A stretch of 64,000 nt of DNA from Zoroaster sp. YZ-2022 (lineage: Eukaryota; Echinodermata; Asteroidea; Forcipulatida; Zoroasteridae), in contig CM055823.1 of assembly GCA_029582265.1 (NCBI GenBank), positions 28,731,228 through 28,795,227 on the forward strand. Direction: 5' to 3'. Below are positions 36,241-47,254 of this stretch, piece by piece. Every line of letters starts with the position of its first letter. Positions within the stretch are counted from its first letter, which is position 1. The translations under genes and the position numbers were made by a program. Under the pieces are notes generated by a model. The model saw only the letters and a list, made by a program, of their open reading frames with translations, had not been told where the DNA came from and did no database searches.

Positions 36241-38801
36241 TTAATGGTTTTTGTGGGTGAAGGCGTCGTTTTGTCCATCGGGGGAGGAGTGGTTGGGGCC
36301 GAGACATCTGAATCTTTTAAGACTTGTGTTTTGCGTTCCTTGGGAATCCTTGAAGGAACTCATTCTTGCCTTCAATGGATCCATGTTGTCAACGACAAGC
36401 TCTTCCAGATTCCTCATCTTCCTGATCTCGTTTTGAAACTCATCTAGAACATCGCATGGTATTTCATCCACTGGGTTAGGTCCTGAAATATGAAATCTTT
36501 CAACGAAAGATAAGTATTTCAGGATGGCTACAAGAAATGTGACAAATAAGTCCGGTGGGCTACCATGAAGCAGATACAGTTTTTTCAGTTGTGCCCATGA
36601 CTCATCATTCTTTTGCAATCTTTCCCAGGCGAACTGAAACCCAGCAATAGTTACTCTGTACAGGGACAGTCTGAGATCAGTCAGCTTTTTGCAAGCATGC
36701 AGTGAGTTTGTAATTGCCACAAAAGCCCTGTCATCCAACTTCTTGTTTAGACGGAGATCCAGCTTCTTCAATGAGGGGAGTTCGTTCAACTTTGCGGCAA
36801 AGTTGCATATATCTTCTGATCCTAAAATTGTCCCTATCAGAACAATATTCTTAAGCATCTTGAAACCAGGAAGACACCGAACCAACTTTTGTGCTGAAAT
36901 CGAAGAGTAGCATTGACCATACTGTGACTGCATGACTTCCAATAGACCTGGAGATTGCAACGTCTGGAGGACACTAGTGTCCGACTGTTCAGACAGGAAT
37001 TCAGACATACCGCTGAGTCTTGACTCTACTCTCTCAAACAACTGTTTCATCGTTACATTTTCATAATCGCTATCCTTTTCTTGTGATGCTTTGCTGTCAG
37101 TGTCTTTTAATGCACCAGGGAGAAAATACTCCAGATATTCTCGAAGCTCAGCCGAATGGTGTTCACCTATCCGGAACAGCTCAATCGATTTGAGATTTAA
37201 ACGTTTTTCTGAATCTTTCTTCGCATGCTGCAAAAGGTACGTCAAAAGTTGCAGCTTATGACTTGAGATTCCAATTATACGGACCATCCCTCCATCTAAC
37301 ATCGGACTGATCAGTTCAGAGCTATCACTCTTGCATTCCATATTCAGTTGGAGACAAACCTCAACCATTTTTTGTACATGAAGTTCATCTCTCAGTGTTT
37401 TCTTTTGTGCACTAGTGATGTTGCTTACCAAATGTTGGATCAATGACGGATGAGCCGAATAACTGTACAATCCAGCAAATACTAATATGTTGGTCAACTT
37501 GATCCTAATGTCTAGGGTCTTCAATTTGGTAAGCCAGTACGACAGACTTTCTTCCGAATAAGCCAAGCTGATACCAGCACAAAGATCTTGAAATATCTCC
37601 AAGACAAAGTCAACCTTGCGTCCTTTCTCTGATCCATAATCCCCATTTACCTCTTGATCAACACGAAGAATCCCTACTCTTATTCCATCATCCAAGACAT
37701 CCTGCCCATTCTCACTAGATTTTAGGAAATCTACTTCCGAATAGACCACTTCATCGTCATTGCACTGATAAATTCTCAGCAATGCTACCCTCCCAAGGTC
37801 CAACAGTAGCTTCAGTTGGTTTCCAGTCAGTTCGTTTCCAGGACTGGACATAGTAATAGGGTCAACAGGAGAACAAGTACTGTCATTTGTTGTGCAGTTA
37901 GCCCTATCAAACATGCACTTCACCATCTTGATAAACAGGTCACACATCGACAATTCCGGTCCAAAAACCTTCCCCTTTGTCCATATGGATAACTGACACA
38001 GAGCTGTGAGATTAATTGGCAGACAAGAAATCTCTGGTTGTAGAATGTGCTCATTTAAATACTCTTCAAGACTGGAACGGGTATCTGTGCTCTTGAGAAC
38101 ACTTCTGACGTATTTGTGAGCATTTGTGAAGCCAATTATATTGACATGGCGTATGTCAAACTCACAACAAATATCTCCCGCCTGCTTCATTTGGCGTGTG
38201 GTTATCACTACTAGTGAATTCACGAGACCTTGGTCTTTGATGACCTTCATGACACGTTGTATGTCGTCTTTGTCGTTACAATCATCAACAAGAATGGCCA
38301 CATCCGTGGAGTGGTTTGCACAATATGAATTGATAAACTTGGCTGATATTTTGGTGTCTTTTGGAAGTATGTGTTGAACAACTGCTTCGCCAATGTTTCC
38401 AGATTTGATAAGGACACCCACTGGCAATACAAAGACTAACCTTGTCTGGCCCAACAGTGCGTTAGGCTGCTCCATGTACCTGTCAAAGACAAACTTAGAT
38501 AGGAGGGCAGTTTTACCGCTACCTGCCCTCCCTTCAATAAGAACATGCCTACTTTCAAATTGTGGAATACCGTCATCAAAGATCTGAGATTCAGACTCTA
38601 ATCGATATCTTACGGTACCATCTGCAGTATACACATTGATGAATAGTTGTAGTGGTGTATACACGGCCTGTATCTGTGCGTAACATGCGTCATCATCCTT
38701 CGTGACCCATGGTGTTATGGGAAGTCTTCCCCGTGTCCTCATCACAAACATCTTGATCTCATTGAGCAGTTTCGTAACATCCAAATCTGGAGTAGGCTCT
38801 G
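36241..38801 (-). CDS. Copy C NACHT-LRR exon (intact)
   Basis: Last coding exon of receptor copy C: a cytosolic NACHT ATPase followed by leucine-rich repeats. Counting from the Met at 38784 (847 residues): P-loop GRAGSGKT at 85-92, Walker [10 protein letters not shown] at 163-171, sensor-1-like VVITTR at 192-197, winged-helix-like [12 protein letters not shown] at 393-404, and leucine-rich repeats around 640-760 ([39 protein letters not shown]). This is the domain order of NLR sensors. The exon opens after TTTTTTCAG in phase 1, matching the TM exon, so the protein is membrane-anchored. The acceptor is CAGCAG, as in copy B. The last ~38 residues are read from a shifted tail repeat and are probably not ancestral. 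Confidence 0.85.

Positions 38802-47254: not shown

Follow-up and report, generated by a model that had tools for sequence, protein, structure and literature searches.

A clustered sea star gene family that probably encodes membrane receptors with Ig domains outside and a NACHT-LRR module inside

NLRs are cytosolic sensors. NLRC4, NOD2 and NLRP3 are located in the cytosol and carry a CARD or a PYD in front. Allorecognition receptors of the Hydractinia Alr type are encoded by clustered genes that join Ig domains to a transmembrane (TM) segment and have no NACHT tail.

Proteins that combine these parts have been described in sea cucumbers. AjNLRC4 (MN607598) of Apostichopus japonicus is an Ig-TM-NACHT protein on the coelomocyte membrane; its Ig part binds microbes, the protein dimerizes and is internalized, its inner part binds β-actin, and it promotes the phagocytosis of Vibrio, with knock-down lowering phagocytosis (PMC8699970). 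It has been linked to a caspase-1/MLKL branch and was reported to bind caspase via its Ig part, which is hard to reconcile with an Ig part on the outside unless the receptor is internalized (PMC11932488). A second membrane protein of the same species, AjNLR-new (PIK48001.1), likewise combines Ig, TM and NACHT (PMC13133943). In the holothuroid Chiridota heheva, V-set was reported among six NLRs with other domains (PMC8913654). The preliminary description of the DNA analyzed here stated that no described family had this domain order; that statement does not stand, with AjNLRC4 in print since 2021, the C. heheva V-set NLRs since 2022 and AjNLR-new since 2026. A search of titles and abstract openings, which did not extend to most subscription journals, found no report of this family in sea stars, nor of an LRR, a gene cluster, two ectodomain classes or a likely origin for it.

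The window is a stretch of 64,000 nucleotides (C8:28731228-28795227) in a Zoroaster genome of 1,001,958,528 bases in 616 pieces. It contains copy C on the minus strand. The span first given for it, 47254-36241, was re-derived exactly, and its exons are as follows.

47182-47254, minus strand: exon 1, start codon and likely signal peptide, with a phase-1 end (cleavage site without a tool prediction)
45006-45344, minus strand: exon 2, Ig1, a membrane-distal V-set domain of class C (Pfam V-set 9.7e-7)
43359-43709, minus strand: exon 3, Ig2, of V-type fold (AlphaFold2 model) and with a second pair of conserved Cys
42711-43040, minus strand: exon 4, Ig3, a V-set domain (Pfam V-set 4.2e-6)
42017-42376, minus strand: exon 5, Ig4, a V-type domain (Pfam V-set 6.8e-4 in the surrounding frame, below the curated cut-off)
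39570-39722, minus strand: exon 6, TM helix at about residues 494-512, with a basic cytoplasmic flank and a juxtamembrane YVMV (hydropathy, charge)
36241-38801, minus strand: exon 7, pre-NACHT, NACHT, helical and winged-helix parts and a six-unit LRR (Pfam, AlphaFold2 model)

All six introns had GT-AG ends and all junctions were in phase 1. As originally proposed, the seven exons joined into one frame, which encodes 1388 amino acids without an inner stop. The frame of the NACHT exon (863 codons) is far beyond chance, since order-1 shuffling of the window, repeated 100 times, gave no frame longer than 245 codons. A signal-peptide exon with the same donor was found in two other cluster copies, and the members from Asterias and Patiria start like copy C and continue with ICP. 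By eye, the final 40 or so residues of copy C seem out of frame relative to the tail repeats of copy B; this apparently frameshifted tail is outside the folded domains.

The Pfam search that had been suggested for the joined protein returned V-set at 2.5e-18 and NACHT at 2.1e-6, and all 16 aligned family members matched both with E values of 0.01 or better. A V-type Ig fold was recovered in each of the four Ig exons by Pfam or by structure. The four Ig domains initially read from the letters were found by different means: Ig1 and Ig3 were above the V-set cut-off, Ig4 was below it, and Ig2, whose exon alone gave no Pfam Ig match at E 0.01, was recognized by structure only, its AlphaFold2 model having the V-set fold. 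The family member P0003 had four V-set stretches in Pfam.

The TM segment of copy C reached a hydropathy of 3.43 over 19 residues, with a net charge of -2 outside and +5 inside. We made the same count for copy C and 17 relatives, leaving out P0029. In all 18 sequences a single strongly hydrophobic stretch (19-residue mean 3.0-3.6) separated Ig4 from NACHT, and no other segment exceeded 2.01, the runner-up in some sequences being the signal peptide. The flank toward NACHT carried the more positive charge in all 18. Hydropathy and charge therefore support a single TM segment with the Ig domains predicted outside and NACHT inside. A juxtamembrane Tyr was present in 13 of 16 members and a YxxPhi motif in 11 of 16, these counts and the 16-member Pfam counts being made without P0029, P0022 and P0023. 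YxxPhi is an endocytosis-type motif, and its juxtamembrane position is compatible with endocytosis.

The NACHT domain of copy C was above the Pfam cut-off and had both Walker A and Walker B; GxxGxGK and D172 (exon numbering) were invariant in 16 rows. The leucine-rich repeats claimed at the start were sub-threshold in Pfam, with LRR_4 at E 1.6 in copy C and LRR_6 in one of 16 members, and were borne out by other evidence. The AlphaFold2 model showed six strand-helix units at exon residues 634-819, and this region aligned by structure with the LRR parts of NOD2, NLRP1 and ribonuclease inhibitor. A sequence search of the PDB with the NACHT exon alone gave no matches, and one with the family profile gave 29; the profile touched, in a weak match, the LRR parts of the solved chains 5irl (1.2e-6) and 4r5d (1.7e-5 for the whole chain, with no single stretch passing by itself). 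The NACHT-LRR half was modeled with the NLRC4/NOD2/NLRP3 fold. None of the 24 Pfam families that the 16 members hit at E 0.01 was a CARD or other death-fold; the signal peptide, Ig domains and TM segment occupy the N-terminal place that the death-fold effector has in NLRs.

The proposed search for the same architecture outside the source genome, with about 8000 candidates scored per search, recovered 18 family proteins, all from three sea star genera (Asterias rubens, Patiria miniata and Acanthaster planci). They are annotated as uncharacterized or Ig-like domain-containing and have Ig and NACHT in one chain. Among them, P0005 and P0011 are marked as partial, P0012 and P0014 have odd front ends, and P0015 is without Ig1. 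The remaining matches were distant NACHT or Ig proteins, including an urchin NACHT protein without Ig (P0024). Family members from sea cucumbers or urchins were not found in these searches; since only about 8000 candidates were scored in each, the absence outside sea stars is weak evidence.

The Ig2 exon had 15 matches of at least 80% identity in the genome, 14 of them within C8:28.33-28.88 Mb (about 550 kb), and two of the 15 hold a stop. The number of genes in this cluster may be 13, because two of the 14 matches are only 1.1 kb apart. It contains six full-length, stop-free NACHT exons, copy C included, plus broken ones. Four further copies in the 200 kb examined had Ig1, Ig2, Ig3, Ig4, TM and NACHT in order and with shared phase. 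In them, the homologous acceptor AG was present at 21 of 24 exon starts, the other three having an in-frame AG three or six bases on (by eye), and GT was present at 20 of 20 donors, three of them one codon past the aligned end. All seven exons were open in four copies, copy C included. Together with the 18 single-protein models, the order and phase of the cluster copies give good support to the placing of Ig and NACHT in one protein, and as far as comparison can tell, copy C is a real gene and a single one.

Broken copies occur at 28391100 (a break in the NACHT exon), 28398688 (a TAA) and 28660881 (many stops). Single frame breaks may be errors, because the assembly was made from Nanopore, Illumina and Hi-C data, in a study that also reports transcriptome sequencing (PMC10394057). 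The window itself contains two damaged copies on the plus strand.

1-1558, plus strand: 3' part of copy A, with the last bases of the Ig4 exon (1-3), an intron and the TM exon from 1419
1559-1625, plus strand: remnant of the copy B signal-peptide exon, in frame with the copy A TM exon and with an in-frame TGA
3325-17189, plus strand: copy B, with an Ig1 of class B, a damaged start exon and retroelement frames inside
3325-3660, plus strand: copy B Ig1 exon
4637-4990, plus strand: copy B Ig2 exon
about 11748-12077, plus strand: copy B Ig3 exon
12543-12908, plus strand: copy B Ig4 exon
13677-13829, plus strand: copy B TM exon
14603 to about 16329, then 16278-17189 in another frame, plus strand: copy B NACHT exon

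No NACHT exon was found after the TM exon of copy A, and the counterpart of the copy B signal-peptide exon has an open frame in two further copies of class B. One deletion seems to have taken both the NACHT exon of copy A and the start of copy B (window 1419-1625, plus strand), and copy B is a probable pseudogene.

Several other elements were seen in the window. Copy B has Ty3/gypsy-like retroelement frames (RT, RNase H, integrase) at 6332-10215 (plus strand), after its Ig2 exon and before its Ig3 exon. A tandem repeat at 5701-6520 (plus strand), with a period of 104 bases and copies up to 98% alike, is just upstream of the first retroelement frame and overlaps it. At 23200-24597 (minus strand) there is a 465-codon DDE_Tnp_1_7 transposase frame (Pfam 2e-81), which we take to be of the piggyBac type. 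Intron 1 of copy C has a match to tRNA-Thr (GGT) at 45843-45915 (minus strand), beside long TA repeats, that may represent either a tRNA gene or an element derived from a tRNA. The intron between the Ig4 and TM exons of copy C has an insertion at 40001-40779 (minus strand) that the aligned copy A intron is without; its inverted ends, by eye, are CAGGGTGTCCCA, and its 123-codon frame had no Pfam match.

Elsewhere in the genome, a rearranged copy at G000:C8:28365617-28372579 has Ig2-Ig4 and TM on the minus strand and a NACHT piece on the plus strand, and a stray Ig2-like copy with a TGA was found at G000:C4:48927642-48927941. Distant Ig2-like matches (30-41%) with open frames at C8:38.7-40.2 Mb and C3:58.6 Mb are perhaps related Ig receptors. 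All 100 NACHT matches scored, from 280 first-look candidates, passed the Pfam cut-off, and many were clustered (C3, C5, C8, C19); a large set of ordinary NLRs coexists with the Ig-NACHT family in the same genome.

Two classes of Ig1, B and C, were present among six copies, with 44-48% identity between classes and 90-96% within them. Between classes, dS was 0.89-1.27 in Ig1, 0.24-0.32 in Ig2, 0.03-0.06 in Ig3, 0.06-0.15 in Ig4 and 0.03-0.06 in the NACHT exon. Copies B and C showed a gradient in DNA identity (65% in Ig1, 82% in Ig2 and 93-96% from Ig3 onward), and from TM to NACHT they were about 95% identical, the intron included. In an Ig1 tree made without P0012 and P0014 (front ends unaligned) and P0015, the Ig1 of Patiria P0007 grouped with Acanthaster P0029 (99/98); Ig2-4 and NACHT of P0007 rejected this pairing (AU p < 1e-5), and the rest of that gene grouped with Patiria. 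With groups named after the tree was seen, a single clade of Patiria Ig1 was rejected (AU p 0.0013) and the non-sisterhood of Ig1 in copies B and C was not significant (AU p 0.106). The simplest reading of these comparisons would be exon exchange or conversion among paralogues.

Pooled dN/dS of the Ig exons within classes was 0.30-0.74, with 0.30-0.56 in Ig1, Ig2 and Ig4 (the groups include broken copies) and 0.39-0.40 in Ig1 within a class; no clear positive selection was found in these exons. The TM exon had values of 0.80-1.20 and the NACHT exon 0.48-0.85 over most of its length, with 1.73 for HD2 and 1.21 for the LRR; in several copy pairs the NACHT exon was near 1. The LRR was the most variable part among four copies (46 of 183 columns vs 86 of 631 elsewhere). 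Because of the higher dN/dS on the inside and the variation in the LRR, some of the sensing may take place inside the cell, or these parts may be under relaxed constraint.

Two candidates for a fast-evolving sensor were tried and rejected. Variation in the LRR was raised, but it affected 7 of 31 strand positions vs 23 of 86 in helices and was mostly specific to copy C. That Ig1 evolves fastest was only half right across Patiria, Acanthaster, Asterias and the window genome. The Patiria members (without P0012 and P0014) were 61% alike in Ig1, 81-86% in Ig2-4, 80% in NACHT and 66% in HD/WHD; Ig1 fell to 46% with the odd-fronted P0012 and P0014 included and was 70% when P0007 was left out too. The four Acanthaster genes were 43% alike in Ig1, 45-75% in Ig2-4 and NACHT and 27% in HD/WHD. 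Asterias domains were nearly equal (93-99%), with Ig1 no more variable than the rest.

Among the matches listed, the best outside the cluster were on C4 and C2 (33%). Upstream in the C4 gene, on the strand of its NACHT exon, lies a frame with a Death domain (Pfam 4.2e-11). A donor follows ...FLTNFT-G, an acceptor precedes the NACHT exon, and the intron is in phase 1 like that of copy C (by eye). The alignment of its NACHT-LRR part to copy C spanned nearly the full length (29% in 765 columns, E 1e-78), followed by a second stretch over the LRR; Pfam found NLRC4_HD (2.5e-5) in it and no LRR above the cut-off. In an unrooted 19-row tree of seven of the 18 family proteins, copy C, the eight top NACHT loci of the genome and two outsiders, the C4 gene adjoined the Ig-NACHT family at 100/98; P0024 had been dropped, its P-loop pattern not being found. 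Because of the Death exon, the phase-1 intron, the alignment and the place in the tree of the C4 gene, an ordinary DEATH-NACHT-LRR gene probably gained its Ig-TM front by exon shuffling. The DEATH exon would have been swapped for a phase-1 Ig-TM receptor front at the phase-1 intron before the NACHT exon.

We regard copy C as a single-pass type I membrane receptor of a clustered asteroid family, and taken jointly with this origin and with the working that follows, we hold this explanation to be moderately likely. The Ig domains would bind a microbial or cellular surface ligand, whose clustering would gather the NACHT modules, with ADP/ATP exchange stabilizing an oligomer. The oligomer would then recruit the actin machinery, a caspase or both, so that receptor clustering and the NACHT tail would lead to phagocytosis or caspase signaling. 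The ligand would be engulfed, as Vibrio is by AjNLRC4 in sea cucumber coelomocytes (PMC8699970), and a heavy load would lead to cell death. With two unlike Ig1 classes on near-identical intracellular halves, one signaling module could serve different ligands.

A wider reading, which we offer only tentatively, extends to the whole of the roughly 550 kb as a cluster of membrane NLRs. The distal Ig exons would be exchanged among genes and the NACHT-LRR halves kept alike by gene conversion, giving sea stars a modular and individual-specific system in which recognition by Ig, possibly of self and non-self, is coupled directly to an NLR switch; it would have arisen from an NLRC4-like gene whose DEATH exon gave way to the Ig-TM front.

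A role as an allorecognition receptor seems unlikely. In that role Ig1 would bind its own or a sister type on neighboring cells, with the choice between tolerance and attack falling to the NACHT tail. The clustering of the genes, their mosaic make-up and the deep split of Ig1 into two classes would suit this, as would P0007, with its Acanthaster-like Ig1 on a Patiria gene, and allorecognition does occur in sea stars, the word 'receptor' being absent from the available text of the report (PMC9763293). The sea cucumber precedent, however, is microbial, the Ig exons are without excess amino-acid change within classes, and Ig1 of Asterias varies no more than its other domains.

It is improbable that the receptor is shed or cleaved, its ligand freeing the NACHT-LRR part to act with a partner as a cytosolic NLR. 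In favor of this, the part inside the membrane amounts to a whole NLR body that has kept its LRR and has no death-fold of its own, but the AjNLRC4 precedent reports internalization (PMC8699970).

We likewise doubt that the locus is decaying and copy C unexpressed or non-functional, a reading to which we give little credence. Six full-length open NACHT exons and four copies with all seven exons open, copy C counted in both, the pooled dN/dS of Ig1, Ig2 and Ig4 and the maintenance of the family in three other genera argue against it, even though copies A and B and those at 28398688 and 28660881 are broken and the NACHT exon approaches a dN/dS of 1 in several pairs. That an Ig-TM receptor gene and an adjacent cytosolic NACHT-LRR gene were joined on paper only is highly improbable, since order, strand and phase are shared by five further copies (B included), the 18 gene models of three other genera are single proteins, and the NACHT exon starts at a splice acceptor with its first Met inside the aligned region, against which stands the TM exon of copy A without a NACHT exon.

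The membrane receptor explanation, if true, means that an NLR switch is wired directly to the cell surface in a whole echinoderm family. To the published sea cucumber work it would add an evident NLR body that includes an LRR, a probable ancestral type, numerous clustered copies and two unlike ectodomain classes joined to one signaling half. The cluster is a candidate for sea star allorecognition, for which the available text of PMC9763293 names no molecules. It also bears, as suspicions, on the published second TM of AjNLRC4 and the inverted layout of AjNLR-new.

The inner half of the sea star proteins is like NLRC4, NOD2 and NLRP3 (PDB 4kxf, 5irl, 7vtp) in its NACHT-HD-WHD-LRR fold, the match to 4kxf covering residues 5-815; the place that a CARD or PYD takes in those proteins belongs here to an Ig-TM receptor. 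Hydractinia Alr and other clustered allorecognition receptors of the Ig type share the clustered Ig-TM genes and differ in having no NACHT tail. Putative membrane NLRs of sponges resemble the family in that TM domains are predicted in NLR architectures; the available text mentions no Ig-NACHT protein, and sponge Ig is joined to TIR (PMC12909245).

The sea cucumber proteins are closer. The Chiridota heheva NLRs share with the family the combination of an immunoglobulin V-set and NACHT (PMC8913654). AjNLR-new has the same Ig-TM-NACHT content and serves Vibrio phagocytosis, but was reported, from TMHMM and from binding and localization tests, to have Ig inside and NACHT outside (PMC13133943). Our suspicion is that its first 'TM' is a signal peptide, in which case its order would equal that of the sea star family.

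AjNLRC4 shares Ig outside, a TM segment, NACHT inside and, as published, no CARD (PMC8699970). The spacing agrees roughly, with TM at 483-503 and NACHT at 600-757 in AjNLRC4 vs 494-512 and 620-768 in copy C; homology between the two would rest on layout and spacing. Its SMART Ig domains (31-132 and 251-353) are approximately at the places of Ig1 and Ig3 of copy C, which leaves room for two undetected Ig domains. AjNLRC4 was described with two Ig, two TM and no LRR, whereas sea star members combine an LRR with a single TM and four Ig domains, P0015 having three. In AjNLRC4, the 'second TM' (776-795) is near 796-809 of copy C, modeled as a helix inside the NLR body, and we suspect from the model that it is a false TM call. 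Because the LRR fold is present, we consider the sea star family a variant and not the same type as AjNLRC4.
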